A stretch of 64,000 bases of DNA from Candidatus Saccharimonadota bacterium (GCA_017406565.1 JAFQYG010000002.1:186001-250000); one strand, 5' to 3'. Shown: positions 3,504 through 62,631, numbered from the stretch's first letter. The notes: generated from the sequence alone by a model not told the origin. Made by a program: numbers and translations.

Positions 3504-6500
3504 GTGCTAAAAAGGTCAAAAATGTATAAATTTAAATATACCAAATATTTAGGTGCGATACTATTTTTGGTATTGTCTGTCTATGGTTGTGGTGATGTTT
3601 TTGCTACAATTAATCCGAATAATTATTCGATTAATTTCAGTATTCAAAACCAGGATCAGGGCGTCAGTGTGCCAGGTTCTTTTGATGGAGAGCGTTATGT
3701 TTTGATTCCGCGTACTTTGTCGGTTTCGACTAATGCTCCTTCCGGATATAGGATTTATGTTGATGTACCTAGCAATGAAGAGTCTCAAGGAGATTTGGTT
3801 TTGGTGGGCGGTACTTCGTCTAGCCCTAGTATTGATTTAGTAAATACAACTCCTGCTACCGCAAGTACGCTCAGCACTGACTCTTGGGGTTTTGGTGTCC
3901 CAAATTCTACTACTGGACTTCCTACAAATACTTTTAGCCCTACGTATAATGTTGCAAATCCATCTTCGAGCAATACTTTTTCAGGCATTCAGATTAATCC
4001 AGGCTATACTTTAGTTCGTAATGTACAATCTGCCGTATCTGGTACTGATAGCTTTGATTTGTATTATGGTTTGAGACTTGGGTCTGATGTTCTTTCAACG
4101 CCTGGCACGTATGAAACACATGTTTCATACCATGCTTTAATTGAGGCAACTGATGTTGCAGGCGGTGAGGCAACTATTACTCCATCTTCTGGGCCAAAGA
4201 CTGGGAATGATAGTGTAACTATAACAACATCCCTTAAAACTGACTTTGTGCCTGATGATCTTGATGTCACAGTCGGCGGATTAGATTGTAATAATCCTAG
4301 GGGTAATATTAGCACGGGCACACTTATAATTACTTGCACAACTCAAGCCCATACTCCAGGGCAGACTGATGTAGCGATAAATATAAATTCTTTAGGTATT
4401 AATTATACGATAGAAGATGGATATGAGTATTTAGAAACGGGGGATGTAAAGATTTCTAGTATTAGTTATATTTCTGGTACTAATGTTTATGGAACTCCGC
4501 ATCCAACAGTGACTGGGGACAACGATGTTGATTTTGATTTAACTTTTAAATCTGGTGTGACACAGGATGATAATACATTCACAGCAAGATATCGCATGAC
4601 AATCACTAATTCAACATCTAGCGATTACATCTTTACAGCTCCTGTATCAAATCTTGTTCTTAGACTATCTTCTACAACGACTAGCGAAGTATATTATGAA
4701 TTAAGTGGTATTTCGGCTGGCGACACAATTCCGGCTAATAGCTCAGTGACTTTTGATATAATTTTGTCGGCTGATTATGTGTCAGGCACACACGGAGTAG
4801 AAGGTGATATGGAAGTTAATCCGGTAGAGGATAAAACAGGTTCTTTAACTGGCACCATTAATGGTTCAGATGAAGGAGACCTTACCGGGAATCATGATTT
4901 GGCAATGTTCCAGATTAACGTGAATAATACTTATTCATCGGATAAAGTTTTCACAATTGATATTTTAGGGAATGATTTTGAGATTGCTGATTCTTCTGGA
5001 CAGTATTTAGGGACCCAAACTATTGCTGCTAATACTACATCGACTTATACATTTTATGTTAAGAAAGCAAATGGAGCTACTTATGGCAGTGATTATGTTA
5101 ACCGTGCAATAGCGATCAATTATGATGGCTTACAATCTAGTGTTGGTACCCTTAAACTAGCCGTAGATAAAGATTCATCTTATGTAGATAATGAAGCTCC
5201 TATTATTAATAATGTAACTATTGTACGCAATGATACGATTGGCTCTGCAACCGTTACCTGGAGCGGTACCGATAACGTAGGTGTGGCAAGCTACGCTATC
5301 TATCCATGCACTAAGGCTAATGATATTTATACATGCGGTAACCCCGTGACTGGGATTAGTGGTGACGCTACTTCTTATACATTGACTGGACTATCAGATG
5401 GTTTATATGGAGTGGTTGTAGTTGGATATGATGATGAGGGCAATACTGCTACGCAACAAGAGATTGATGAGGCTACGGTCGATTCGGGTCCTGCTTGCCG
5501 AAGTGCAGATACCGAAATAAGATGGACGTTCAATATTACTGGAAGGATTACTAATGGCTCACTAAGTAATAATGGTGGTACGATTCAGATGGGTGCCACC
5601 TATACTGGTACTATCAACCCTAATAGTGGATATAATACACCGAGTTCTATTACTGTTTCGATGAATGGTAGAAATCTAACCACTAGCGAATATCGATACG
5701 TAAATGGTTCGATTACTATTCAAATTCCAGTCGATGGCGATATTATAGTTACGGCAAGCTGTCCTTGGGATTGGTGTTTGATTGAAGGTACTATGATTGC
5801 GCTCGCTGACGGTACTTCTGTGCCGATTGAGGAGGTGACTTATGATACTTTGCTTAAAGTCTGGAATTATGAAACTGGTAGTGTGGGCGCAGAATACCCT
5901 GCTTGGATTGAAAAGAGGGGCACTACTGTTTCTTATCAATTGACCAAATTTAGTGACGGTACGGAACTAAAGACTTCTGGTTGGCATGGTGTATTTGATG
6001 TAGATAAAAACGCATTTATTTCAATCGATGATTCAGAGTTTGTAGTTGGTACTAGGATTTACAAAGTTAATGAAAACAACGAACTTGAAGCTATAACTGC
6101 GGTTAGTATTGAAAGAGTTCAGGAAGAAGTACACTATTATCATGTCGTTTCAAGTCAGTATTATAATATTATTGCCAATAACATTATAACTACAGATGGA
6201 GCAGTATATCTTTCGAACTTATACGGATTTGATGAGAATATTAAGTGGCCTGCCATACGTGAAGAAATTATGTCAGATCCGAACAATCTGTATACTTTTG
6301 AAGATTTTGAAGACATTGGGATGCCACGTAAGATGTTTGATGATTTGCGCGTACGTGAAGGTAAATATTTGGCGACTAAATATGGTATTACGCTCGAAGC
6401 ATTTAAGGGATATCTGTTAAGTAATCAGCTTAACACAGATATTTGGTTGCACTATTGTGATGGCTCGGAGAGATTAAAAGAAGAGTTTTGTCCGGTAATC

Positions 6501-42470: not shown

Positions 42471-42545
42471 TGGGGATTCGCCAAGTGGTAAGGCAGTGGG
42501 TTCTGGTCCCACCATTCGGGGGTTCGAATCCCTCATCCCCAGCCA
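42471..42545 (+). tRNA. tRNA-Gln (CTG), integration target
   Basis: The acceptor TGGGGAT pairs with ATCCCCA. The anticodon stem GTGGG/CCCAC carries the loop TTCTGGT (anticodon CTG). CCA is encoded. The serine recombinase gene on the other strand ends inside its 3' end (stop at 42533-42535). Confidence 0.95.
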
Positions 42546-44113
42546 TTTTTTGTTTTTGAGTCCAAAAGGTTCCGAGCGAACGGTCCTGACCCCTGTAATA
42601 TCAGTCCGCTAGGTCCTAAAGTTCGGTTCGAGCACGTGATGAGACCAATGAGGTCTCTTTTTTCGGCCGTTGTGGCTACATCGAACAATTTGTCGGCATA
42701 TTTAAAGACTTTTAAGATATAACCGGCATTTGTATAGAAGTTGTCGTCGGCTCGATCTAGCGCGACTTCTTGCGCCTGAATCTCAGCTAGTTCGTTGCGA
42801 TATCGCTCGTTATTTTGGTTATAAAGTTCCAGAGTAATACTCTTGTCCATTAGCATATCGTAAGCTTCCTGCTGTCTCGCTTCTAGTTTCTTGCGCTTTT
42901 GAGATAAACTTCGGCGTTGCTCGCGATAGAAATCTATCTTTCCGGCATGCGCTTCGGCTAATGCCTTTCTTATCTCGTCTAATTCGGTTTCAGTTAGTTT
43001 TAAACCTCGTAGGAATTCTTTTACCTTATCATCAAGATATTCTTCGGTGTAGCTCTTCATGCTCTTATGCACTCCTCGTCGGTTCGTGCAGTGGTAGTAT
43101 TTGTGGTGATTATAACCACCGTGTCGTAGCTTACGCTTCTTAAATTCTGGCGTTATTGTGCATCCACACTCTTCGCAGCGAATTAGTCCACGATAAGCCG
43201 ATTCTATGCCACCATACTTCGGTACCTGATCGTCACCCTTAAGATTTCTCTTGTCTAATATCTGATTAACCATATCAAACAGCTCTCGATCTATTATCTT
43301 CTCGTAATTATGCGGATATTTCTTTCCGCCTTTTTTATCGATAATAAATCCGACATAAAACTCACATCTTAGGAATTTATGGATGATTCCTTGGGAGAAT
43401 TTAGTGCCGTATTTCTTGTTCATTAGTCTTGCTAAGGTTCTACATGAATAAGTTCCGGTCGAGAAGAGCAAGAATACTTCTTTTACGATCGACGCGGCCG
43501 GTTCTACCGGAACGACGTTTTTAACCTTCGGCCTGACGCTGATAGTTCTAAATTCATAGCCATAAGGCGCGCTCCATGGTAGCTCGCCGCGCGACAGTTT
43601 ATTGATCTTCGTATTAAGGCCGTCTTCCTTAATGCGGTTCAGGTATTCCTGGCCCACAAAAACCTTCACATTCCAAGATGTGAGGTCGGTCGCGCGGCTA
43701 TTCTCTGAGAGAATCAGCCTTTCGTCAACGCAGTGGATGCGCTTGCCGTATTTAATGCGTAAATCTTCAATCGTTACTGCGTCGCGGAAGTTCCTCGTAA
43801 TACGATCTACGCGGAATGCGATAATATCCGTTACGTCCGGATTATCCTTTAAGAATTGGATCATCTCGTTGAAGCGTTTGCGCTCTTTATAGCTACCGCC
43901 AGTTTCGCCAATAGCGTATTCGCGCACGATCTTTAAGTTTTGCTCGATCGCGTAATCGCGCATACGCGGTAGCTGAATTTCATCGAGAGATAAGCCTTCT
44001 TTTTCTTGTCGCGCCGTTGATACGCGAGCGAATAGAACGGCTTTTCTGGTTAGTTGCGGCTCATTAGTTTTGCCGGTATTTACAGGGGTAGAGTTTCCCA
44101 TGTTATCAAACAT
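42533..44113 (-). CDS. Large serine recombinase (integrase)
   Basis: A 526-aa site-specific recombinase that joins DNA through a serine-phosphate intermediate. The resolvase domain (about 22-170) has LFARVSTARQEKEG with catalytic Ser32 and an AFRVDRITRNFRDA arginine region. A recombinase domain (about 180-290), a zinc ribbon with RCEECGCTI...YHC (about 310-340) and a coiled-coil tail follow. Its last codons, GWG-stop, are read from the tRNA-Gln 3' end, as expected if integration created the 3' end of the gene. The surrounding DNA is richer in GC than the flanks. It marks the left edge of the integrated element. Confidence 0.92.
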   Translation of the reverse strand: MFDNMGNSTPVNTGKTNEPQLTRKAVLFARVSTARQEKEGLSLDEIQLPRMRDYAIEQNLKIVREYAIGETGGSYKERKRFNEMIQFLKDNPDVTDIIAFRVDRITRNFRDAVTIEDLRIKYGKRIHCVDERLILSENSRATDLTSWNVKVFVGQEYLNRIKEDGLNTKINKLSRGELPWSAPYGYEFRTISVRPKVKNVVPVEPAASIVKEVFLLFSTGTYSCRTLARLMNKKYGTKFSQGIIHKFLRCEFYVGFIIDKKGGKKYPHNYEKIIDRELFDMVNQILDKRNLKGDDQVPKYGGIESAYRGLIRCEECGCTITPEFKKRKLRHGGYNHHKYYHCTNRRGVHKSMKSYTEEYLDDKVKEFLRGLKLTETELDEIRKALAEAHAGKIDFYREQRRSLSQKRKKLEARQQEAYDMLMDKSITLELYNQNNERYRNELAEIQAQEVALDRADDNFYTNAGYILKVFKYADKLFDVATTAEKRDLIGLITCSNRTLGPSGLILQGSGPFARNLLDSKTKNGWG

Positions 44114-44211: not shown

Positions 44212-45423
44212 CTAGTTTGGCCCAGCGCGCACCTTGTTTAATTCTGTAAAGTATTCAAGTAATCGTACTGGCTTGAACTCGGCCAGTTTATCTTCTATGT
44301 AGCTAGTAGAGCTACTCTTTCTCGTTCTAAAGTAGATCTTTGATATTTTCTTCGTAAGTCTAGACCACTGCGCCGAATTGGCGCCGGTCATCTTCCGCAC
44401 GTCTCGGCTTCCGGTTTCGCGCATTAGGCTCCATATCGCCAAAGTCTCTAGCCGTTGCGCTAAGGTCGCTTTTGGATTTAATGTATTTATCTCATGAAGA
44501 AAGCTGGTAGCTGTATTCGTAATTGTTTCATTAAGGTCTAGATTCTTCGCCTCGATCTGCATGAATTCGTATTTTAGTAGCGTCTTCGCTAATTCTTCAT
44601 TGAAGATATCTATAAATACAAGCTTTTGCTTCGTAGCTAGTCTTGCGACACTGTCGCTCGCTTTAGCCTTCTCGAGAGCGTGTTTCAGCGCTGTACTGAA
44701 CGCACGTTTCGTGTTGTATCGCGCTTCAACACGCACCACTTCAAAAGGCTTCTTGCTACGGATATTATCAAATAGCGTAAGTTGGCAGTAATTATCTTTC
44801 TCGAGTAGTCCGCGCTCGCTGACGCGAGACTTAGCTAGTTCTCTTCTCTTATCATAAATCGCTATGGCCTGGCTTGCGCTGTAAAAGTGCAGAGCTTCGC
44901 CATCGTTCCGATAAACACGCATATCGGCTTGTTTTCTGGTCGATACATTTGCTTTTGCTATATCGCCAATTACACTTGCCGCAGTCCGGTAATCATCAAA
45001 AATGATATTCTTGCCAAAGTGAACAGTTTTAACTTCGGCTCTTTCTATCTGGTTTCTTTTAATCTCAATTCCGAGCTTATATAGTTTGCGATAGAGCTCT
45101 GCGCAGACAGCCTTAAAGTCACCACTACCAAGCTCATCGAAGTTATTGTTGTAAAGAATCTTTGGTGCTGAAAATTCGATATGCAAGAATACAGAAACGC
45201 CGCCGGCTCGTACTGCTTTCATGAGTGTAACGCGTGGCTGATATACGCCTAGCTTCTTATCTTTCGCTTTTAGCTGTAATACGCATTTAATAACTTTGCC
45301 GGATCCAAAAGAATAGTATGGCGGCCCAAAGATGCCATGAGCAGAAGGAGAGAACTTACGATAAACGCTCGGGCTAATCCTGAAATTGGGGTAGTTCACT
45401 CGGAGAATCACAGTATCGATCAT
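44212..45423 (-). CDS. Phage/plasmid replication protein, II/X-like (putative)
   Basis: A 403-aa protein resembling gene II/X-type replication initiators. It starts MIDTVILRV, has a VFLHIEFSAPKILY strand, an ERAEVKTVHFG block and a late VVRVEARYNTKRAF block. These follow the order and spacing recalled from filamentous-phage and plasmid initiators (MID..., SPAKVL, DATFS, RFEARIKTRYL). Such proteins nick a replication origin to start rolling-circle replication. The catalytic Tyr cannot be fixed by eye. It sits next to the integrase, so the element may replicate when excised. Its first 50 nt overlap the SpoVG-like gene. Confidence 0.6.
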   Translation of the reverse strand: MIDTVILRVNYPNFRISPSVYRKFSPSAHGIFGPPYYSFGSGKVIKCVLQLKAKDKKLGVYQPRVTLMKAVRAGGVSVFLHIEFSAPKILYNNNFDELGSGDFKAVCAELYRKLYKLGIEIKRNQIERAEVKTVHFGKNIIFDDYRTAASVIGDIAKANVSTRKQADMRVYRNDGEALHFYSASQAIAIYDKRRELAKSRVSERGLLEKDNYCQLTLFDNIRSKKPFEVVRVEARYNTKRAFSTALKHALEKAKASDSVARLATKQKLVFIDIFNEELAKTLLKYEFMQIEAKNLDLNETITNTATSFLHEINTLNPKATLAQRLETLAIWSLMRETGSRDVRKMTGANSAQWSRLTKKISKIYFRTRKSSSTSYIEDKLAEFKPVRLLEYFTELNKVRAGPN

Positions 45424-47203: not shown

Positions 47204-47216
47204 GGGTGGTCTTTTT
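47191..47216. terminator. Bidirectional terminator
   Basis: GCCACCC and GGGTGGT form a 7-bp stem with A-run and T-run on either side, between the zinc-ribbon gene and the convergent hsdR. Confidence 0.8.
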
Positions 47217-50200
47217 ATGCGGTAATTGCGTCATGAAGAATTGAAACGGTGTATTTAATTGGTTCTACGTCGCCGCCAAACAATTCATTCCAATCGATAG
47301 ATTTAAATGGGTCTGTCTTTAGTAGATCGGCGAGTTCAATATCGCCGTTCTTTTGGACATATTTGACAATAACATTAATGAATTCTTGTTGTTTCGAATT
47401 AAGTTGATGAGCATTAAGGTATTCACCAAACTTTTTATTTACAGCATCCTGATCTATGCCTATCAAGCTACGCACAAATGCGGCAAGACTTTTACCATTT
47501 GCGTTCTCGTTATACTCGTCCTCTGAGCCTAAATCGAACCAAAGCAATTGCTTGAGTTTTTCGGCATCTTTTTGATCTAGTTTTTCGAGGTTGCGAATCT
47601 TTTCAATAGTTGCATCGTCGCCATTCTTCGTCAAGTAGTCAATTACGCGTTCCTTGTATGTGCGAATATCGATGACTGTACCATCTGGCTGGAAGTCTGG
47701 ATCTACGAGTTCATCGCTTACATCGATGTCGATCAATCTGAGTTCATCTCCGGTAATATACTTGATTAGTTCGCGTACGGAATCGCGTAGACGCTCTAAG
47801 TCTTTTACTTGTGGCTCGTTCCAGCTAGATTCATCATACAGCTCTTTAAGATCGTCTTTCTTGGCTTCAACTTGCGGAATAGTCATCTTATTTTGAAGAA
47901 GATATTGCGCTATTTCGCGTACTTTCTTTACATCGGCAGTCGCATAAGCTGGGGTATTCTTCAATATTGCTCTCTGAATTCTCATCATTCTAATATCAAA
48001 TGATAAGGCCTTAAAATCAGAGTCGGAACCGCCCTCAATGAGTGGTGCCACAAAAGTCTTCAGCTCATGAACGTTTACTGGAGTTAGAGCAAGCCATGCT
48101 TTATCATTGTTGTATTTATCGACATATTTCAAATTTTGACGCACAGCAATACGGTTGGTGCTTTTCTTCAAATCCTTAACAATATCGAGAAGTATACGTA
48201 CGGTTTTGTTGCGGTAGTCGCTGAGAAATTCATCTTCTTGGCTCTCGAAATCTTGAAGGCTATATGCGATTTCAGATCGGAGTGCGAAGATTCTTTGAGA
48301 AAGCGAAACCTTATCGCCAGCGCTAACTACTTCATTATGCTCAACTTGGAAATACTCAAAGTTATCACAATAATCAAAAATGAGGAATTTCTTTTTGTCG
48401 TTGCCTGGGCCAAATAAATCTGGGCAGAGACGCGTTCCGCGGCCGATCATCTGGACAAACTTGATCTTTGAACGTACTGGCTTAAAGAACATAAGGTTGG
48501 AAACGGCAGGAACATCAATACCTGTGTCAAGCATATCAACGGAAACAGCAATCCTAAACTCGTCATCGGTATCAAACTTAACTACTAGATCTTCGGCGTA
48601 GTTTACGGAATAGTCGACTAATTGGCAGGTGTTTGATGGAAGGTGAGGGTAAAGCTTCTTGAACTCATTAACGATCATCTCGGCGTGTTTGTGGTTGTAT
48701 GCGAAAATGATTGTTTTTCCAATTGTTTCGCCACCATTTACGCGGATGCCTTTTTCCATTAAATCTTCGAGCACACTACGGCAAGTATCTTCGTTAAAGA
48801 TGGAGCGGAAAATAGCATTTGCCGGAATTGTTAAGTCTGGCGTTTCGCGGTCGCCTTCAAGAAAATCGTCCAGCTGTTCGAGCTGATCTTCGTCTAACTC
48901 TTCGCGCTTAATACCTTGCGTCATAATACGAGAATGACGATTAATAACTTCATAGCCGACAAGGTAATGCTCTTTAATTGCGTCTTCTAGTGGATAGTCA
49001 AAAGTCGGCTCTCCAGATTCGCATTCGAATATTCCATATGTGCTACTTCCAACTTCGTCGCGCGGTGTAGCAGTAAAGCCGACAAGCAAGCTATCGAAAT
49101 ATGCGAAAATCGAAGCGTAGCGGTTAAAGATTGAGCGGTGCGCCTCATCAACAATAATCAAGTCGAAGCGTCCGGTCGAGAAATCTTTGTCTTCAGCGTC
49201 GATATAATTAATCATCGTTTGATAGGTGCAAAACATCAAACGGGCATTCATGTCTTTGTTCGCGTTTCCGCCTTCAGAAAGCTCGCAGATTGTCATATCA
49301 GGCAGAAGCTTTGCGTAGTTTCGTTTTGCCTGTTTAACGAGAGAAGTACGATCGGCTAAGAATAGAACATTCTTGATCCAGCCGTTTCTTGCCAAAATAT
49401 CCGTCAAAGCGATCGATACGCGCGTTTTACCGGTGCCAGTAGCCATGACTACTAGTCCGCGGCGATGATGCGCGTTAAAACGCTCACACATGCGCGTAAG
49501 GGCCATCTTTTGATATGGACGGCCAGCAATTTCGTCTTTTGCGGCCATATCGGTTATATTACCGCGATTTCGGCGCTGAATCATGCGCTCTAGTTCTTCA
49601 AGTGTATGGAAAGCCGTAACTTTACGATCTGGATAAACACCATCGATGACATGAGTTTCGTAACCGTTTGTATAGTAGATCACCGGTTTATAGCCGAACT
49701 TTTCCTTTAATGATTCGGCATAAAGGTCTGCCTGATGGCGGCCAATTTGCGGATCCTTTGAAGTCTTTTTCGCTTCGACAACAGCAAGTGGCTTGCCGGC
49801 GCGGTCGTAAAGCACGTAATCACAGTAACCAACACCTGCGTTGTTTGGCATATTGCCGACTTCTATTTCGATGCCAGCCTTGCCAGGAAGGGCAACGCCT
49901 TTTTGCGTTAGTACATCCCAACCGGCCTCGCGCAAATACATGTCGATATATGCCGCCCTAGTTTCAGCTTCCGAGAAATATTCTGGAGACTTCGTTGGCT
50001 CTTCAAAAGTGTTATTCTTGTTGTCCAAGAACTTTATGAAGTATTCCAGGTTATCTACGGCAATTTTTACATCTTTCTCACGAACTGGCTGATTATGTTC
50101 AGCACGAATACCTATAATACGAATAAAGTGAAGCGATTCAGTAACCTGATCGTCGTTTACATAGTTTCTTATTGGGGAGCAGTCAATCAGCTCAAGAAGA

Positions 50201-50349
50201 GAGTATTTTTTCTTTTTCTTAGCTGATTTCTCTGGAAAGATTTGTTCGAGTACTTCACGAAGAACTAGGCGTGACGCCTTAGCTTTCTCTTCCTTCGTAG
50301 GAAGTGCTCGAATTAGCTCGAGTCTTCCCATATAGCCGCTCGAAAACAT
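47215..50349 (-). CDS. hsdR: Type I restriction endonuclease subunit HsdR
   Basis: The 1044-aa motor and nuclease subunit. A DUF4145-like N-terminus (about 1-115) precedes the HsdR_N PD-(D/E)XK nuclease, with Asp177 (GYCDYVLY) and Glu192-x-Lys194 (VVEAK). The helicase follows with MATGTGKTR (301-309), DEAH (400-403), FTATPRDE and MIGRGTRLC, then an EcoEI-type C-terminal region. ATG 50349 (MFSSGYMG) gives a normal HsdR length and has TATAAT (50364-50359) nine bases upstream on this strand. The same frame is open upstream through hsdS3, so an HsdS-HsdR fusion of about 1400 aa is also possible. Confidence 0.88.
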   Translation of the reverse strand: MFSSGYMGRLELIRALPTKEEKAKASRLVLREVLEQIFPEKSAKKKKKYSLLELIDCSPIRNYVNDDQVTESLHFIRIIGIRAEHNQPVREKDVKIAVDNLEYFIKFLDNKNNTFEEPTKSPEYFSEAETRAAYIDMYLREAGWDVLTQKGVALPGKAGIEIEVGNMPNNAGVGYCDYVLYDRAGKPLAVVEAKKTSKDPQIGRHQADLYAESLKEKFGYKPVIYYTNGYETHVIDGVYPDRKVTAFHTLEELERMIQRRNRGNITDMAAKDEIAGRPYQKMALTRMCERFNAHHRRGLVVMATGTGKTRVSIALTDILARNGWIKNVLFLADRTSLVKQAKRNYAKLLPDMTICELSEGGNANKDMNARLMFCTYQTMINYIDAEDKDFSTGRFDLIIVDEAHRSIFNRYASIFAYFDSLLVGFTATPRDEVGSSTYGIFECESGEPTFDYPLEDAIKEHYLVGYEVINRHSRIMTQGIKREELDEDQLEQLDDFLEGDRETPDLTIPANAIFRSIFNEDTCRSVLEDLMEKGIRVNGGETIGKTIIFAYNHKHAEMIVNEFKKLYPHLPSNTCQLVDYSVNYAEDLVVKFDTDDEFRIAVSVDMLDTGIDVPAVSNLMFFKPVRSKIKFVQMIGRGTRLCPDLFGPGNDKKKFLIFDYCDNFEYFQVEHNEVVSAGDKVSLSQRIFALRSEIAYSLQDFESQEDEFLSDYRNKTVRILLDIVKDLKKSTNRIAVRQNLKYVDKYNNDKAWLALTPVNVHELKTFVAPLIEGGSDSDFKALSFDIRMMRIQRAILKNTPAYATADVKKVREIAQYLLQNKMTIPQVEAKKDDLKELYDESSWNEPQVKDLERLRDSVRELIKYITGDELRLIDIDVSDELVDPDFQPDGTVIDIRTYKERVIDYLTKNGDDATIEKIRNLEKLDQKDAEKLKQLLWFDLGSEDEYNENANGKSLAAFVRSLIGIDQDAVNKKFGEYLNAHQLNSKQQEFINVIVKYVQKNGDIELADLLKTDPFKSIDWNELFGGDVEPIKYTVSILHDAITA

Positions 50350-51408
50350 ATTACTTATATTATACCATAAACTGCATAAATTCATAAGGCTTATGATGGA
50401 TTTTTGAAGCGCAAATTTTGATTTGTCGACCTGAGCAACAAAGGCGGCGAACACATCAATGCTCGCTTTATCAGGAACTGGAAGTTTAACCTTATCGAGC
50501 ATATATCGAGTTATCTGGTTAATTGTTGTGGTTCCTGTAGATATTTGCGAACGAAATTCTGGCAACTGAAAATAAGTCATGAGATATGGGTAATAATCGC
50601 TTCGTATAATCATCATGAACGCGCCGAAGCTCATTTGTTCCTGAAGGTCGGGAATGAGTGCAACTTTCCCGACAAGCTTAGCACTACCGTTCCTTGAGCA
50701 CATCAGAATATCATTTTTCTTCACCATCTTTTTGTCGCCGATGTCGCATTTTACGCGGACAATGTCATTAAGATCTAACCGCATGCTTTGTATGTTGCTT
50801 GAACGCAAAACAATAGTTCCGTCATTTGACACGTCTGTCGGTTTATAAGTTAGCCCGTTCCAATATTCAGCTATGTCTGAAAGTGGTTTAATTGGGTATG
50901 TTTTTGAGTCGTTAAGCATCTCGACAAATCGGGCTTTGATGAGATTATCTAGATAGGAGATTTGTGCTTCTTTTTCGTCAATAATATTCTTAATCTTTTC
51001 AAGTTTTTCGCACGCGTCTTTTTGTTCTTTGATGCTAGGAAGTGTTATTTCCGCATCGGTAAGATTACCGAGCTTTATATACTTAATGACTCCGCCAATC
51101 GATAGCTTTCTCAGTTCTTGAATATATCGCGTCATGAAATGGTAGAGGTATGGAAGATGAAGTCTTCCGTCACCATTAGATTCAATAATGTATGTTCGCT
51201 GATATGCGTCAAATTTTCCGTTGTAATATTTAGCATTTAGATCGCCATTTCCAGCAACTAATACACATTCGCAATCATACGAATATGTCGATATTCGCAA
51301 CGGCTCTTTCGAACATGTAAAGAAAGGATATTCGCCATTTTCAGAAGCCGCATTAGCATCTAGTTTGCCGGTTCTAATCTTTGTTAACTCGCCAAGCTTA
51401 ACTTTCAT
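50350..51408 (-). CDS. HsdS3 specificity cassette, open into hsdR (no stop codon)
   Basis: About 353 residues of a type I specificity subunit: TRD1 with VKLGELTKIRTGKL, the central repeat KARFVEM (encoded at 50917-50940), TRD2 with KPLSDIAEYWNGLTY, and the 3' conserved VDKSKFALQKS. There is no stop; the frame continues into HsdR. The start is ATG 51408 with GAGGAAG upstream, inside the palindrome shared with hsdS2. It may be a silent TRD donor or a true fused HsdS-HsdR protein. It runs in the same direction as hsdS1. Confidence 0.8.
50411..50430 (-). repeat. Shufflon repeat C (in hsdS3)
   Basis: GCAAATTTTGATTTGTCGAC, identical at 53603-53622 (same orientation) and present as the reverse complement at 52494-52513. 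It encodes VDKSKFA. Confidence 0.85.
50917..50940 (-). repeat. Shufflon repeat B (in hsdS3)
   Basis: A 24-bp copy of the KARFVEM-coding repeat (core CGACAAATCGGGCTTTGAT), shared with 54055-54083 and inverted at 51973-52001. Confidence 0.85.
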
Positions 51409-51410
51409 AC

Positions 51411-51440
51411 TTCCTCTACAAATTCGAATTTGTAGAGGAA
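51411..51440. repeat. 30-bp perfect palindrome, shufflon repeat A
   Basis: A perfect inverted repeat centred on TTCGAA, between the divergent starts of hsdS2 and hsdS3. Its core ACAAATTCGAATTTGT (51418-51433) recurs at 54661-54676. Each arm carries a GAGGAA ribosome site for one of the two genes. Confidence 0.9.
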
Positions 51441-51443
51441 AAT

Positions 51444-52595
51444 ATGCAATATAAAACTCTAGATTCGTTATGTAAAGTCGCATCAGGCGGTACGCCATCA
51501 CGCTCAAAGAAAGAATACTGGGATGGCGGAGATATTCCTTGGATCAAGATTGGCAATATTAAAAGCAAAGTAGTCTCCAACGCTGACGAGTACATAACTG
51601 AAGCTGGCTTAAATAATTCATCGGCTAAATTATTTAAGAAAGGCACAATCCTGTATACGATTTTTGCCACATTGGGCGAAGTGGGCATCTTGGATTTTGA
51701 CGCTTGCACCAATCAGGCAATAGCTGGGATATCTATAGAAAAAACTGAAGAAATAACTACGGATTATCTGTATTATTACCTGAAGTCGAAAAAGGCCGAA
51801 GTCAACCAAATTGGTAGAGGCGTTGCTCAGAATAACATCAACCTATCGATCCTGCGCAAGTTCTCAATTCCGATGAGGGATATCGATGAGCAGAAGACTA
51901 TCGTCGATTCTCTTAATAAAGCAGAGTCAATTATCGAAAAACAGAAGCGACAATTAGAACAATTAGACGAGCTAATCAAAGCCCGATTTGTCGAGATGTT
52001 TAATAGAAATTTCAACAATACCGTTGAACTTGGTAATGTCTGTGATGTGCGCGACGGTACCCATGATTCGCCAAAGTATCACGACGAAGGCTACCCATTA
52101 GTAACGTCAAAGAATATTTGCGATGGGGAGATCGATTTTTCCACTTGTAATTTAATCCAGAAGGAAGATTACGACAAGATCAACAAGAGATCCAAGGTTG
52201 ATATTGGCGATATCTTAATGCCAATGATAGGCACCGTTGGTAATCCTATTATCGTAAATACCGACAAAGAATTTGCTATAAAAAACGTAGCATTAATTAA
52301 GTTCAAGGATGATACAGTAGCTCTTAATTCATTTATAAAAGCTCTACTTGAGTCTGACTATTTTGACAGAGCCGTACTTAGCAAAACAAAAGGCGGAACG
52401 CAAAAATTCATTTCGCTTGGTGACATTAGGAAATTAGAGTTTAATTTGCCGCCAATTGAATTACAAAAACAATTCGCCACCTTCGTCACACAGGTCGACA
52501 AATCAAAATTTGCGCTAAGCAATGAACTTGCGATGTGCAACTTTTACGTTCGTCTGGTTCACGATTGCGTAATGCATGGTTGTATCAATTTGTGA
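51444..52595 (+). CDS. HsdS2 specificity subunit in inverted (likely silent) orientation
   Basis: A 383-aa type I specificity subunit on the strand opposite to hsdM. TRD1 begins YKTLDSLCKVASGGTPSRSKK. The central coiled coil contains LIKARFVEMF, TRD2 begins ELGNVCDVRDGTHDSPKY, and the 3' block is TQVDKSKFAL. After that block the tail differs from HsdS1 and is read antisense through the last 81 nt of the tyrosine recombinase gene. No promoter is seen upstream other than the palindrome, so it should be expressed only after inversion places it behind hsdM. Confidence 0.88.
   Translation: MQYKTLDSLCKVASGGTPSRSKKEYWDGGDIPWIKIGNIKSKVVSNADEYITEAGLNNSSAKLFKKGTILYTIFATLGEVGILDFDACTNQAIAGISIEKTEEITTDYLYYYLKSKKAEVNQIGRGVAQNNINLSILRKFSIPMRDIDEQKTIVDSLNKAESIIEKQKRQLEQLDELIKARFVEMFNRNFNNTVELGNVCDVRDGTHDSPKYHDEGYPLVTSKNICDGEIDFSTCNLIQKEDYDKINKRSKVDIGDILMPMIGTVGNPIIVNTDKEFAIKNVALIKFKDDTVALNSFIKALLESDYFDRAVLSKTKGGTQKFISLGDIRKLEFNLPPIELQKQFATFVTQVDKSKFALSNELAMCNFYVRLVHDCVMHGCINL
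51973..52001 (+). repeat. Shufflon repeat B (in hsdS2)
   Basis: A 29-bp exact reverse complement of 54055-54083 in hsdS1; 24 bp of it also match 50917-50940. Confidence 0.88.
52494..52513 (+). repeat. Shufflon repeat C (in hsdS2)
   Basis: Reverse complement of GCAAATTTTGATTTGTCGAC. With hsdS3 the match extends to 26 bp. It lies one base from the recombinase stop codon. Confidence 0.85.
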
Positions 52596-53483
52596 ATGAC
52601 CTAGCAGTTTCTGAACTTGCTCGATTGGCATCCCTTTGTCGATTGCACGTGTCGCCATAGTCCGGCGGAATTTATGAGGGTGAACTTTATTTATGCCTAA
52701 TTCGCGTCCTAAGCGCCTCAGACGGATTTCTACGCCAGATATCTGTAATCTATCGTAAGGCGCGTCAAGCGTCACAAAAAGGGCAGGATTTGCGTCAGAG
52801 CGGCTATTTATGTAGCCCATTAGGTGTATCTTGGTTTTAGCATCGAAATATACGCGCCGCTCTTTGTCGCCTTTGCCGAAAACTATGCATTCGCGTTCTT
52901 CAAAGTCTATGTCGTCAATATTAAGTCTTACGAGCTCACCAATTCTAATTCCGGTCGAGTAGAGAAGGTCAATAATTGCCAGGTCGCGTAAGCTGCTGCA
53001 TCTGTCGCGCATTTTTTCGATTTCTTCGTCCGAGATTATTTCTTTCACGGTTTTTGTGGTTTTGATTTTATGGATCCTACGCATTGGGCTTTTAATGATA
53101 TAATCTTCTTCCTCAAGCCAAGTAAAGAAGCTCGAGATATTGCGGCGGATATTATCGATCGTGGTTTTGCTACAATCATTTAGACCTTGATAGTTCGCAA
53201 GGTAATCACGTATGTCGTCGGTGGTTACTTTACGTATCGGATCATCTATCTCGTCTAATAGCTTTTCTATGGTGGTCTTATAGTAGGATAAGGTCCGCTC
53301 GGAACATCCTTCAATCTTTTTGGCATTCAGAAACATCGACAGATAATTGTCGTTTGAAATGCCATTTATCGACCTCGTTTCTTTCGTTAGGCGCGAAACG
53401 AGCACACGTTGTAGTTTTTGTGACTGATTTGCGGTGAGATATTCGTCCATATCCACCAAAATATATTTAATGGTATCTTCCAT
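52515..53483 (-). CDS. Tyrosine recombinase of the hsdS shufflon
   Basis: A 322-aa XerC/D-like integrase. A SAM-like core-binding domain (about 40-140) precedes the catalytic domain with Arg180 (TGIRIGE), Lys204 (FGKGDKER), His270-x-x-Arg273 (HPHKFRR), His296 (LLGHSQ) and the nucleophile Tyr305 (TMHYA). Enzymes of this kind invert hsdS segments in phase-variable type I systems of Streptococcus and Bacteroides. It lies between oppositely directed hsdS genes bounded by inverted repeats, which strongly suggests the same role. Its 3' end overlaps hsdS2 antisense by 81 nt. Confidence 0.9.
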   Translation of the reverse strand: MEDTIKYILVDMDEYLTANQSQKLQRVLVSRLTKETRSINGISNDNYLSMFLNAKKIEGCSERTLSYYKTTIEKLLDEIDDPIRKVTTDDIRDYLANYQGLNDCSKTTIDNIRRNISSFFTWLEEEDYIIKSPMRRIHKIKTTKTVKEIISDEEIEKMRDRCSSLRDLAIIDLLYSTGIRIGELVRLNIDDIDFEERECIVFGKGDKERRVYFDAKTKIHLMGYINSRSDANPALFVTLDAPYDRLQISGVEIRLRRLGRELGINKVHPHKFRRTMATRAIDKGMPIEQVQKLLGHSQIDTTMHYAIVNQTNVKVAHRKFIA

Positions 53484-53535: not shown

Positions 53536-54654
53536 CTAGCCAAAATACTCCTGCATCAAGCTATCGAATAATTGTTGAGTCTTTTCGAGAGACTTCTGTA
53601 CGGCAAATTTTGATTTGTCGACTTGGGCAACAAAGGTTGCAAATTGATTCTGTATATCGATTGGTGGTACTTGCATCTCTATGTTCAATAAATCTGCTTT
53701 AGTAGTGCTAGGAAGGACTGCCTGTTTATTGAGCCTAGAAAAATCAAACATCTTGCAAAACCAAAAGAAGTATAAATAATGGAGCTTATCACCAGGAATA
53801 ACACCAAAGGCGGTATCGACATTCCAAAATTTTTCTCTGACAAGCATGGGATTATTAATGGTACCTTTTCGGCCTACGATTATAGTATTCTCCGGGCATA
53901 AAAACTCGCTTGCTCTGGCCATCTCTCCACCAGTGCCATATACGGGATAGCCGCCACCTTTAACGGATACTTTCTTGTAATCCTTTCCATTCCTAATCGT
54001 AACAATATCGTTCCACTTTTGCTTTGGGTATATTGTTGATTTGTATATATCGCCAAACATCTCGACAAATCGGGCTTTGATTAATTCGTCATACTTCCCG
54101 ATGGACTCATTTTTCTTATCCATTATCCGAACTAGATAATCTAGTTTATTAACTAAATCGTTCTGACTTTTAATATCTATCAATGGAAATGTCATCTGCT
54201 TTAGGTGACTAGGACCATAATTTAATTGTGCGGAACCTGTAATTTGTTTGGCTAACTGTCTCTTAAAAGCATTCGATTTAAGGAAATACATGAAGTATCT
54301 AATATTTAATTTAGAATCATCTAGAGCTTTAAATCGAATCGTACTCGTATTCATGCATAGGGGTAACATTTCCTTTGTAATGAACCCCATTTTCTTATCA
54401 ATATAGTCAACCTTAATTCCCGAGCTCGCTACAATAAAATCGCCTTCATCACATAAGAAGTGTCTATATTTTCCATATGCCTCATCTTCGGAAATATATC
54501 TATCCGATGTAGACAAATCCACTTTCCCGTCAACTAAATTCGCAACATTCAAAAGTTTTACGCCCGATGTAGTGTATTGCGTATTCCTTACGCCAGGACC
54601 TTCCTGGAAGAATAGCATTTCTGGTATTTTGACTTCTTCTTTCTCGGCCATCAT
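53536..54654 (-). CDS. hsdS: HsdS1, expressed type I specificity subunit
   Basis: A 372-aa specificity subunit that selects the two halves of the DNA target. TRD1 (about 8-150) starts IPEMLFFQEGPGVRNTQY. The central conserved helix contains LIKARFVEMFGD (about 197-208). TRD2 (about 215-340) contains YPVYGTGG, and the C-terminal conserved helix is VDKSKFAVQKSLEKTQQLFDSLMQ. It starts four bases after the hsdM stop (GTG-type context ATGATGGCC), so it is the member expressed with HsdM in this orientation. All three shufflon repeats are present at its 5' end, middle and 3' end. Confidence 0.9.
   Translation of the reverse strand: MMAEKEEVKIPEMLFFQEGPGVRNTQYTTSGVKLLNVANLVDGKVDLSTSDRYISEDEAYGKYRHFLCDEGDFIVASSGIKVDYIDKKMGFITKEMLPLCMNTSTIRFKALDDSKLNIRYFMYFLKSNAFKRQLAKQITGSAQLNYGPSHLKQMTFPLIDIKSQNDLVNKLDYLVRIMDKKNESIGKYDELIKARFVEMFGDIYKSTIYPKQKWNDIVTIRNGKDYKKVSVKGGGYPVYGTGGEMARASEFLCPENTIIVGRKGTINNPMLVREKFWNVDTAFGVIPGDKLHYLYFFWFCKMFDFSRLNKQAVLPSTTKADLLNIEMQVPPIDIQNQFATFVAQVDKSKFAVQKSLEKTQQLFDSLMQEYFG
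53603..53622 (-). repeat. Shufflon repeat C (in hsdS1)
   Basis: GCAAATTTTGATTTGTCGAC, inverted relative to 52494-52513. Confidence 0.85.
54055..54083 (-). repeat. Shufflon repeat B (in hsdS1)
   Basis: 29 bp, exact inverted match to 51973-52001; codes for the IKARFVEMF stretch. Confidence 0.88.
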
Positions 54655-54658
54655 ATAC

Positions 54659-56164
54659 CTACAAATTCGAATTTGTTTCGGTTAATAATTTCTTTAATTC
54701 GGCAAGGTTATCGGCCACTTCCTTGTCTAATTTCTCGATATCGGCAAGAATTTCGGATGTTGGTGGATACTCGACTTTCTCGTATTCTACTTCTTTGTAC
54801 TTGTTGATAGAAAGGTCGTAACCGTTCTTTGCGATTTCTTCTTTAGGCACAAAGAATGACTGGTCGGTACGCTTGCGATCTCCTTCGTTATTCAAATTGT
54901 GGAAGCGTTTGATAATATCTGGAATATCGTTTTCTTTCACTGCGGCACGTTTGTCATCAAGGCTAAAGCCATCAGCTTTCATGTCATAGAACCAGACTTT
55001 ATCGGTTCCGCCAGTATTGGTCTTTGTGAAGATAAGAATTGCCGTAGAAACACCTGCGTATGGCTTAAATACGCCCGAAGGCATAGAGATTACGGCAGTA
55101 AGCTTCTGATTCTCGACAAGTTCCTTGCGGAGTGCTTTGTGGGCCGTACTACTACCAAATAAGACGCCGTCCGGAACGATTGATGCACAACGGCCACCAA
55201 TCTTTAGGGTTTTGATGAATAGAGCAACGAATAGAAGCTCCGTTTTCTTTGTATTAGCTAGCGAAAGGAGGTCTTTTGATACCTGATCTGGGAATAGACT
55301 ACCAGCAAATGGTGGGTTAGCCATGATCATCGAGTAGGCTTCGCGTTCTGTATTATCGTTTGAAAGTGAATCTTGATACTTGATGTTTGGACTATCAACA
55401 CCATGGAGCATCAAGTTCATTGCTCCAATACGAAGCATAGATTGGTCAGTATCAAAACCGGTCACAAGCTTAGAGCGGTAGTAGTCGCGCTTTTCTGGCA
55501 CCATAAGATCGTCTTCTTGGTGCTCGCCAACATAGCGGATGGTTGAGAGCAAGAATCCGGCGCTACCCATAGCTGGATCTAGAATATTATCGTTAAGTGT
55601 TGGTTGCATGAGCTCCACAATCATATTGATGATGTGGCGTGGCGTGCGGAACTGGCCGTTCTGGCCGGAAGCGGCAATCTTACTAAGAAGATATTCGTAG
55701 ACATCACCCATGATATCTTTGTTATTCATGTCCATGGCGTCGATGCCGTCCACGATCTTAGAGAGAACTAGTGGCGTTGGGATCAAGAATGTTGCGCTAT
55801 CCATGTATTTACTAAATGTGGAGTCGCCAATCGTCTTAATGAACGGGAAGACGTAGTCCTTTACGGTATTAAACATAGTCTCTGGATCGAAGTTATGGAA
55901 AACGTGCCAGCGCATGTCTTCATAATTAGCTTCAAGGCGTGGATTTTCGGAGATTACGCAGACACCTTCGCCGAAGATTTTGCGCTCTAGTGGAATACCG
56001 AGGGAATTGGCTTTCGATTCGTCCTTCTGCTGATTGTCATCAAGTAACTTAATGAACATTAAATAAGTAATCTGCTCAACGGCGGTAATCGGGTTAGTGA
56101 TGCCACCAGTCCAAATCGTATCCCAGATGGAATCTACTTTGTTGCGTAAGTCTCCGACAATCAT
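54659..56164 (-). CDS. hsdM: Type I DNA methyltransferase subunit HsdM
   Basis: A 501-aa N6-adenine methyltransferase subunit. An N-terminal HsdM_N helical domain (about 5-150) precedes the SAM-binding motif DPAMGSAGF (196-204) and the catalytic NPPF (283-286). It works with HsdS for methylation and with HsdR for restriction. Its last six codons are formed by shufflon repeat A, so inversion leaves HsdM intact while exchanging the following hsdS. TATAAT (56208-56203 on this strand) and GGAGATA before the ATG give a normal leader. Confidence 0.95.
   Translation of the reverse strand: MIVGDLRNKVDSIWDTIWTGGITNPITAVEQITYLMFIKLLDDNQQKDESKANSLGIPLERKIFGEGVCVISENPRLEANYEDMRWHVFHNFDPETMFNTVKDYVFPFIKTIGDSTFSKYMDSATFLIPTPLVLSKIVDGIDAMDMNNKDIMGDVYEYLLSKIAASGQNGQFRTPRHIINMIVELMQPTLNDNILDPAMGSAGFLLSTIRYVGEHQEDDLMVPEKRDYYRSKLVTGFDTDQSMLRIGAMNLMLHGVDSPNIKYQDSLSNDNTEREAYSMIMANPPFAGSLFPDQVSKDLLSLANTKKTELLFVALFIKTLKIGGRCASIVPDGVLFGSSTAHKALRKELVENQKLTAVISMPSGVFKPYAGVSTAILIFTKTNTGGTDKVWFYDMKADGFSLDDKRAAVKENDIPDIIKRFHNLNNEGDRKRTDQSFFVPKEEIAKNGYDLSINKYKEVEYEKVEYPPTSEILADIEKLDKEVADNLAELKKLLTETNSNL
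54661..54676. repeat. Shufflon repeat A at the hsdM/hsdS1 junction
   Basis: ACAAATTCGAATTTGT, itself a perfect palindrome and identical to 51418-51433. It overlaps the last hsdM codons and stop. Confidence 0.85.
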
Positions 56165-59847: not shown

Positions 59848-62631
59848 TTAATTTGCAAGCGTAAATGATCTACCTGAAGGTGGAGTAGCAGTAACTGAAG
59901 TAGAATTACCATAGAGATTAGCCGTTGTGTTAGTGATTGGGCCGGTAGTGGTGCCATTGTTAGTCTTTGGAATAGTGACAGACCAGGTAGTAGCTCTGTA
60001 GCCGGCAGAAGCGAACATGTTAGACATACTCGTTACACTAGAAGTATCCCAAGATGAAAGATTTAATGTGAAGGTAGTGGCACTGCTGCCTGCAGAGCTG
60101 AACATGCTATTCATATTCGTTACACTAGAAGTATCCCAGGAAGAAAGGTCGCCTACGGACCAGGTGGTGGCATTGCTGCCGGTCATGTAAAACATGTTAT
60201 TCATACTTGTCACGCTAGAAGTATCCCAGGAGGAGAGGTTTAGGATAAAGGTGGTGGCATTGCCGCAAGCAGCGTAGAACATACCAGACATATTCGTCAC
60301 GCTAGAGGTATTCCAGGAGGAGAGGTCGCCTACGGACCAAGTGTTGGCATTGCGGCCGGCAGTGGAGAACATGTTAGACATATTCGTCACGTTAGAAGTA
60401 TTCCAAGAAGAGAGGTCGCCTACAGACCAGGTGGTGGCATTGTAGCCGGCATAGTAGAACATACTACTCATATCCGTCACGCTAGAAGTATCCCAGGAAG
60501 AAAGGTCGCCTACGGACCAAGTGTTGGCATTGTGGCCGGCAGAGCTGAACATTTGAGACATACTCTTCACACTAGAAGTATCCCAGGAAGAGAGGTTTAG
60601 GTTGAAGGTGGTGGCGCTGTAGCCGGCAAAGTAGAGCATTTGAGACATGCTCGTCACGCTAGAAGTATCCCAGGAAGAAAGGTCGCCTACGGACCAGGTA
60701 GTAGCATTATAGCCGGCGTAGAGGAACATTTGAGACATACTTGTCACACTAGAAGTATCCCAGGAAGAGAGGTCTAGACTAAAGACAGAGGCATTGTAGC
60801 CGGCATAATGGAACATGTAAGACATATTCGTTACGCTAGAAGTATCCCAGGAAGAGAGGTCTCCTACAGACCAGGTGGTAGCATTGCGGCCGGCAGTGGA
60901 GAACATGTTAGACATATTCGTCACGCTAGAAGTATCCCAAGAGGAGAGGTTTAGGTTGAAGGTGGTAGCACTGTAACCGGCAGAGGTAAACATGCTAATC
61001 ATATTCGTCACACTAGAAGTGTCCCAAGAGGAGAGGTTTAGGTTGAAGGTGGTAGCACTGTAACCGGCAGAGGTGAACATCTGATGCATATCCGTCACTT
61101 TAGAAGTATCCCAGGAGGAGATGTCGCCTAGGGACCAATCAGTAGTATTGTAGCCGGCAGAGGAGAACATGTTAGACATATTCGTCACGCTAGAAGTATT
61201 CCAGGAAGAAAGATCGCCTATAGACCAGGTAGTAGCATTGTAGCCGGCATAGTAGAACATACTACTCATATCCGTCACGCTAGAAGTATTCCAGGAGGAG
61301 AGGTTTAGGTTGAAGGTGGTGGCGCTGCGGCCGGCAGAGGAGAACATACTAGACATACTTGTCACGCTAGAAGTATTCCAGGAATAAATAGTAGATAGAT
61401 CGGATAGAGCTCGCATGTTGTAGAAGAAAAAGCTAGAACTTCGATTCATCATAATGGTAGAAACGACAGAATAATAGTAGATGGTACCAGAGTCAAACCA
61501 AGCATAAATGGGGCTTATAGAAGTACTGGTAGAGATAGTATTATTGGAAGTAGGCGTAAAGCCACTAGGTAAAGAGTTAGCGCGAACTAAAGCGGTAATT
61601 GCGTTGTCCTCAGTTGAATAGGTAGCTGAACTATTACCAGCTAGTCTTTTCAGCTTTTGGTTTACGTTTAAACCAGTATCTAGAAGAGCAGCTTTCTCCC
61701 ACACAGCATGAAGGGTGATGGTATTAGAAGCTTTAGTATGGTCTATAGGTATGGCAAGGTTAGTTCGTCTTCCATCAGGATTATAGGTGGTACCAGTACA
61801 GGTAGCATCATCTGCTACTTCTGTTGTACACCAACCTTTAAAGGCATAGCCATTACGGGCTGGTAGATTATCAAAGATATCTACAGTATCTTCAGAAGTC
61901 ATACCAACTTGAGGGTTAGAGGAAGGTAGGTTGCTTACTGTAGCAATAGTATTCTTGTTGTAATTAATAGTATAGGGAATAGCGGGTCTCTTATCTACTG
62001 GATGGACTAGAGTGTATAAGACTTTACCAGTATAGGTACCAGCTGGTTGAGTTAGACTGACAAATGCTGCATAGGTAGAAGTGAGAGTAGAGCCTTCTGC
62101 AGTATTACCAATATCAGTAGCAGAATCTCTATGGGCTACTTTAGTATGATTACTTGGTACTATATGATAAGAAGTGAAGCTACCATTAGTATCAGAATCT
62201 ATAGTTAATGGATAAGTTGGAGTAGGAGAAGTAGGAGTAGATAGTTTCATGGCCCAGTTAGATGTATCGCCCGATGTAGCAGTACCGGTAGCGATATTAT
62301 AAGTAGGATCTGCTGAGCTACTTAGATGAGTCTCACCATAAGTATCATCAGAATAGCCTATCGCATAAATAGAAAAGCCATTGTTATCATTACAGAATGC
62401 TTTCATGGTAGTAGTACCTATATTATTCTGATAGGTACCATTCATCATATTTGCATTATGTGAAGTCATACCAGTACCTTCTAATGAACAAGATACTGGT
62501 ACTGTGATATTAATGTTGTCTACCGTAGAATCATCTGCATGAGAATAAGAAGACATTAAAAAGGCTCCAGAAAGGACTGTAAGACTTAGTAGTCCTAGCG
62601 GAGCGATTAATAGACTTTTCTTTAAAAGCAT
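59848..62631 (-). CDS. BspA/DUF285-type repeat surface protein
   Basis: A 927-aa secreted protein. A signal peptide (about 1-33, ...SYSHADD) precedes the Saccharibacteria-type beta domain (about 35-230) and an InlB repeat (about 230-320, ending LHAVW). A short linker leads to sixteen DUF285/BspA-like repeats of 29 or 30 residues with the core [19 protein letters not shown] (about 400-880), then a Thr/Asn-rich tail. Two unit types differ in their ending: TWSVGD (30) or TFNLN (29). Such repeats form leucine-rich-repeat-like solenoids in adhesins. No C-terminal anchor is seen. The coding DNA is a near-exact tandem repeat, so copy number may vary between strains. Confidence 0.88.

Follow-up and report, generated by a model that had tools for sequence, protein, structure and literature searches.

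A Candidatus Saccharimonadota bacterium (GCA_017406565.1, a draft assembly of 815 kb in 7 contigs) has a type I restriction-modification locus in which a specificity gene, hsdS3, continues into the restriction gene hsdR without any stop codon. In the stretch analysed here (the window: 64,000 nt, JAFQYG010000002.1:186001-250000), one minus-strand frame is open from TTG 51507 or ATG 51408 to the stop at 47215, encoding 1430 or 1397 amino acids, respectively, and the Pfam domains Methylase_S (twice), DUF4145, HSDR_N, ResIII, Helicase_C and EcoEI_R_C are all found in this single chain. Is a fused HsdS-HsdR protein made, or do two genes share one frame? A first description based on the sequence only (the sequence-only reading) had offered two answers: a 1397-aa fusion that alters the subunit stoichiometry, or an hsdR with its own leaderless promoter behind a silent store of target recognition domains (TRDs) whose stop was lost.

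Our data argue for a modified version of the second answer: the anatomy of the locus, the shuffling of TRDs between relatives and the substitution pattern at the junction support a silent TRD store and an own, near-leaderless promoter of hsdR well, while the fusion with altered stoichiometry finds no support. The genes are arranged, in minus-strand order, as hsdM, hsdS1, a tyrosine recombinase, the inverted hsdS2 (plus strand), hsdS3 and hsdR. We consider it very likely that this is an inverting type I restriction-modification locus of the phase-variable type, with hsdS3 as a silent store, HsdR made separately and a functional fusion unlikely. According to this model, hsdS1, behind hsdM, would be the expressed specificity gene and hsdS2 and hsdS3 would be stores; the linked recombinase would invert DNA between matching repeats (5' end, middle and 3' end of the cassettes) and in this way swap their TRD1s and TRD2s. 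The hsdS sequence of hsdS3 would end at the 3' repeat and be followed by the hsdR promoter region, which by chance would be stop-free in frame; hsdR would use its own extended -10 element, its mRNA would have at most a few bases ahead of ATG 50349, where translation would begin, and S and R would be made as separate proteins.

The junction between hsdS3 and hsdR

The frame contains two TRDs and a full HsdR, as first described, but its HsdS part is not complete: hsdS3 has the central and distal repeats and lacks the C-terminal segment ...LFDSLMQEYFG. Segments of this type are found in the single hsdS genes of relatives and, among the three cassettes of the window, in hsdS1 only; the hsdS behind hsdM is thus the only complete one. 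Past the sequence DKSKF, hsdS1 continues with AVQKSLEKTQQLFDSLMQEYFG and then stops, and the single hsdS genes of the relatives L038, L039, L044, L048, L050 and L058 end similarly. Neither hsdS2 nor hsdS3 has such an ending: hsdS3 has instead 21 codons of other sequence, directly followed by ATG 50349, and the part of hsdS2 that lies past the 3' repeat extends into the recombinase gene in antisense orientation. The best reading of these data is that hsdS3 is cut just after the 3' recombination repeat and that its apparent tail corresponds to the hsdR promoter region. The proposed loss of a stop codon therefore needs amending: the store seems to lack the native 3' end altogether, as in five other lineages (L037, L040, L042, L045 and L053), in which stores are likewise cut after DKSK right before hsdR.

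The substitution pattern distinguishes between a linker and a promoter. Between the window and its relative L033, the 63-nt junction differs at 1 of 11.2 synonymous and 8 of 51.8 non-synonymous sites, while the body of HsdR differs at 490 of 640 synonymous and 61 of 2369 non-synonymous sites (Fisher's test on the counts, 3e-7). The relatives L034 and L036 are identical in all 63 nt, and their hsdR bodies differ at 213 of about 2226 nt (p = 0.003). The first 40 codons of hsdR have only silent changes between the window and L033 (9 synonymous, 0 non-synonymous) and five to six amino-acid changes in the comparisons with L034 and L036. The tail of hsdS1 behaves like a protein-coding sequence, with 9.5 synonymous and 3.5 non-synonymous changes between the window and L036; a direct contrast of the hsdS1 and hsdS3 tails in the same pair points in the same direction, but the counts are small and the difference is not significant (p = 0.11). 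These counts gave no sign of the protein-level constraint that a functional linker should have, and they led us to reject selection on the protein as the reason why the frame has stayed open. It is the DNA of the junction that is conserved, not the encoded peptide, which fits a promoter rather than a linker.

The start of hsdR is consistent with this. The sequence-only reading had placed a TATAAT box (50364-50359) and ATG 50349 exactly at the joint, and these coordinates proved correct; the extended -10 element TGGTATAAT that contains the box is invariant in five sequences. In L058, whose HsdR is 70% identical, there is no array, just hsdM, a single hsdS that ends in a stop, and then hsdR; this hsdR has a TATAAT 6 nt before the ATG and its first residues, MNLDKHLHELELIK, align without gap with MFSSGYMGRLELIR, the window sequence from ATG 50349. 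More distant hsdR relatives start near the same place too; a ribosome site can be recognised in about half of these. No ribosome-binding site precedes ATG 50349, where the sequence is TATAATATAAGTAAT, in agreement with leaderless translation. A survey of 345 kb of genome sequence shows TGNTATAAT at 6 or 7 nt upstream of an ATG in 54 of 161 sites, with about 3 sites for each of the other distances, and leaderless mRNAs are therefore evidently common in this Saccharibacteria genome. Given the spacing of 9 nt, the hsdR mRNA would probably carry two or three leader bases. For leaderless genes, PMC3160421 places the second base of the -10 box at -14 to -8; in hsdR this base is 14 nt from the start, at the edge of the range.

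Cassette exchange and recombination repeats

The second line of evidence comes from L036, a relative with a gene order identical to that of the window. In blastn comparisons, hsdM, the recombinase gene and hsdR are 80-82% identical in DNA between the two, while a block of hsdS3 that contains TRD1 is 97.3% identical to L036 6345-6863, a region that lies within hsdS2 of L036 and is inverted relative to hsdR. The ends of the block fall within the central repeat on one side and the 5' palindrome on the other. On the protein level, TRD1 of the window hsdS3 is 97% identical to TRD1 of L036 hsdS2, and TRD2 of hsdS1 is 90% identical between the two loci; all remaining TRD1-TRD1 and TRD2-TRD2 pairs are 18-30% identical. 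A block of such identity, inverted amid much more divergent flanks, indicates that TRDs move between cassettes and between lineages. TRDs of the window are thus found in another cassette and orientation in a relative, which, as L036 is a different species, is not proof of switching in one clone.

All cassettes have matching repeats at three places, the 5' end, the centre and the 3' end (Table 1), and these inverted repeats lie in the conserved parts of hsdS; the 3'-end repeat common to the cassettes is FAAFVAQVDKSKF. The last codons and the stop of hsdM fall inside the 5' repeat. Together with several hsdS genes with distinct TRDs, at least one of them inverted, and with hsdM, hsdR and a recombinase gene, the locus has the composition of inverting loci. 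The recombinase matches NF040815 above the cut-off and has a 90% identical copy in L036. An 18-mer of the 5' repeat was present in 2 genomes in an order-wide search. Contigs of three relatives start at or close to repeats, L033 at the 5' palindrome, L034 and L035 at the 3' repeat or a few bases ahead of it, as if reads of several isomers had been mixed, although this is only suggestive.

Table 1. Coordinates of genes, repeats and junction elements of the hsd locus, counted from the first nucleotide of the window
Feature	Position	Strand	Description
hsdM	54659..56164	-	501 aa; HsdM_N, N6_Mtase
5' repeat, shorter copy at hsdM/hsdS1 joint	54659..54676		100% complementary to 51418-51435
hsdS1, putative expressed position	53536..54654	-	372 aa; Methylase_S x2; own stop
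Tyrosine recombinase (XerA-like), candidate invertase	52515..53483	-	322 aa; Phage_integrase
hsdS2, putative inverted store cassette	51444..52595	+	383 aa; Methylase_S
5' repeat	51411..51440		Perfect palindrome TTCCTCTACAAATTC/GAATTTGTAGAGGAA common to the back-to-back hsdS2/hsdS3 starts
hsdS3, putative store cassette	50350..51408	-	Two TRDs; no native C-terminal tail; no stop before hsdR
TRD1 block of hsdS3	50917..51435	-	519 bp; 97.3% identical to L036 6345-6863
Central repeat (LIKARFVEM) in hsdS3	50912..50951		Partners 51964-52003, 54055-54090
3' repeat (FAAFVAQVDKSKFA) in hsdS3	50408..50451		Partners 52473-52516, 53603-53643
Junction, 3'-repeat end to hsdR start	50350..50412	-	63 nt; conserved as DNA, not protein
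TGGTATAAT, extended -10 of proposed hsdR promoter	50359..50367	-	9 nt before ATG 50349
hsdR	47215..50349	-	1044 aa from ATG 50349; domains (see text); PADLOC REase_I

Expression of hsdS3 and alternative explanations

The start codons of hsdS2 and hsdS3 flank the 5' palindrome (51408-51446), and in a transcript reading through from the hsdS2 side a hairpin is predicted to cover both the start codon of hsdS3 and its Shine-Dalgarno (SD)-like sequence (-22.3 kcal/mol, z -5.7). The equivalent hairpin of L036 has -21.4 (z -4.3), and the hsdM/hsdS1 joint folds with -9.6 only (z -1.2); at this joint, the repeat would in addition be unfolded by ribosomes that reach the end of hsdM. The same repeat may thus allow expression behind hsdM and prevent it in the store. 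Palindrome folding over a store start codon is a possible way of keeping stores silent, perhaps also hsdS3.

Several observations weigh against a silent hsdS3 and a separate hsdR. Four close Saccharibacteria relatives have the frame open as well, and in two of them it was seen complete. The -10 element of hsdR is at 9 nt and not at the favoured 6-7 nt, and the distance of 9 nt is not enriched in the genome (4 sites versus about 3). A good -35 element is missing; at a spacing of 17 bp the hexamer reads TTATGA. An SD-like GAGGA is kept ahead of the hsdS3 ATG, and a promoter-like match (51476-51448) is found upstream of hsdS3. The latter sits in the exchangeable TRD1 of hsdS2 and carries little weight, because a sigma-70 scan finds fewer sites (15) than shuffled sequences have (26.7).

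The open frame itself is not strongly beyond chance. With a probability of 1/3 for the same frame and of 0.19 (junction shuffles) or 0.44 (genome windows) for no stop in 17 codons, it is expected in roughly 6-15% of cases. The four Saccharibacteria relatives inherited the junction by descent and are not counted separately. In the five other lineages with stores cut right before hsdR, the store tails all differ, and each ends in a stop and is out of the hsdR frame; a single open lineage among six could be due to chance. A stop between the two parts in homologues, which the sequence-only reading had named as evidence against a fusion, is thus present outside the lineage but not within it.

The explanation that survives best next to separate products is that both are made: HsdR from the internal promoter and a little fusion from read-through transcription of hsdS3. 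Read-through of the hsdM transcript is possible, with no convincing minus-strand terminator between the recombinase gene and hsdS3, and the frame is open, but a read-through transcript would have the predicted hairpin over the hsdS3 start, and the linker shows no sign of protein-level selection; we regard this combination as unlikely. Less likely still is a minor fusion from such through-transcripts whose specificity half varies by inversion, resulting in a few complexes in which R carries a second TRD pair.

It is very improbable that the 1397-aa fusion is the main product and serves as a restriction subunit with its own specificity half. The frame stays open in the window and the four close relatives with differing TRDs upstream, and the SD-like sequence precedes ATG 51408. 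However, the linker is not conserved as protein, the HsdS half has no conserved C-terminal tail, the start codon is predicted to be inside the hairpin, hsdR starts at a position homologous to the start in relatives without a fusion, and no fused homologue was found outside the lineage of these close relatives among the more distant HsdR relatives compared. Structure prediction, which had been proposed as a check, is weak evidence: residues 1-853 of the fusion were modelled with low confidence (mean pLDDT, the predicted local distance difference test, of 63.7) and the HsdS half poorly; confident folding begins only around residue 360, shortly after ATG 50349 (residue 354).

That the missing stop is an assembly artefact is hardly credible: the genome is a draft of 7 contigs and inverted-repeat arrays are hard to assemble, but the junction is unique sequence outside the repeats, and four other assemblies, with differing TRDs upstream, have it open too, which is why assembly error was rejected.

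Genomic surroundings and known systems

The closest HsdR relatives are from Candidatus Saccharibacteria, and close genome-search matches belong to the same genus or family; in the order-wide search, a close HsdR was found in 4 of 393 genomes, own genome included. The metagenome-assembled genomes (MAGs) L034 and L035 have an identical hsdR, and the genomes that match them are assigned to different genera; either recent transfer or a binning error would explain this. On the hsdR side of the locus, two minus-strand genes encode a large serine recombinase (42533-44113) and a 403-aa product that matches no family (44212-45423), and L033 has a serine recombinase downstream of hsdR too (5100-6020): the restriction-modification system may sit on a mobile island. 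At 59848-62631 (minus strand), a 927-aa protein with 14 PARCEL repeats (TIGR02167) is encoded, which is likely a surface protein.

Inverting type I loci are known from the pneumococcal cod/SpnIII system (PMC4948785) and from a group of such loci surveyed in REBASE (PMC7394358). The window resembles these in having hsdM with one apparently expressed hsdS, further cassettes with other TRDs of which one is inverted, repeats placed in the conserved parts of hsdS, a linked recombinase gene and a complete hsdS only behind hsdM. It differs in its Saccharibacteria host, in the last store being directly upstream of, and open into, hsdR, in the overlap of the 5' repeat with the hsdM end and in the store start codons that adjoin the palindrome. 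Among array-bearing Lachnospiraceae and Clostridia MAGs (L040 and L053; stores also in L037 and L045), HsdR is 53-56% identical, the recombinase of L040 and L053 is 69% identical and the store is also cut directly upstream of hsdR; unlike in the window, their store tails stop out of frame and a ribosome-binding site precedes hsdR in several cases. In Akkermansiaceae, L047 (11171-13236) has a similar recombinase (68%) and a further hsdS downstream of hsdR, which is another array layout. A limited literature search found no inverting type I switch for Saccharibacteria.

With leaderless genes of other phyla (PMC3160421, PMC12340547), hsdR shares a TATAAT close to the start and the absence of a ribosome-binding site, but its spacing is 3 nt longer than the one favoured in its own genome; a limited literature search found no paper that treats leaderless genes in Saccharibacteria. 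Type I subunits joined in one frame, engineered or natural, are known as HsdM-HsdS and as HsdR nuclease-HsdM fusions (PMC3510504, PMC6158711). The joint of the window is different, leading from S to R in a chain that is probably not made, and no S-to-R fusion was among the type I fusions found in the literature.

The open frame across hsdS3 and hsdR thus looks unremarkable, a side effect of a switch of known type, and the joint is a compact one: the hsdR promoter would come immediately after the point where the store is cut. For annotation this is a warning: a store next to hsdR may be called a fusion gene of 1400 aa, probably wrongly. The locus also shows that a reduced Saccharibacteria genome apparently holds a shuffling type I restriction-modification switch.

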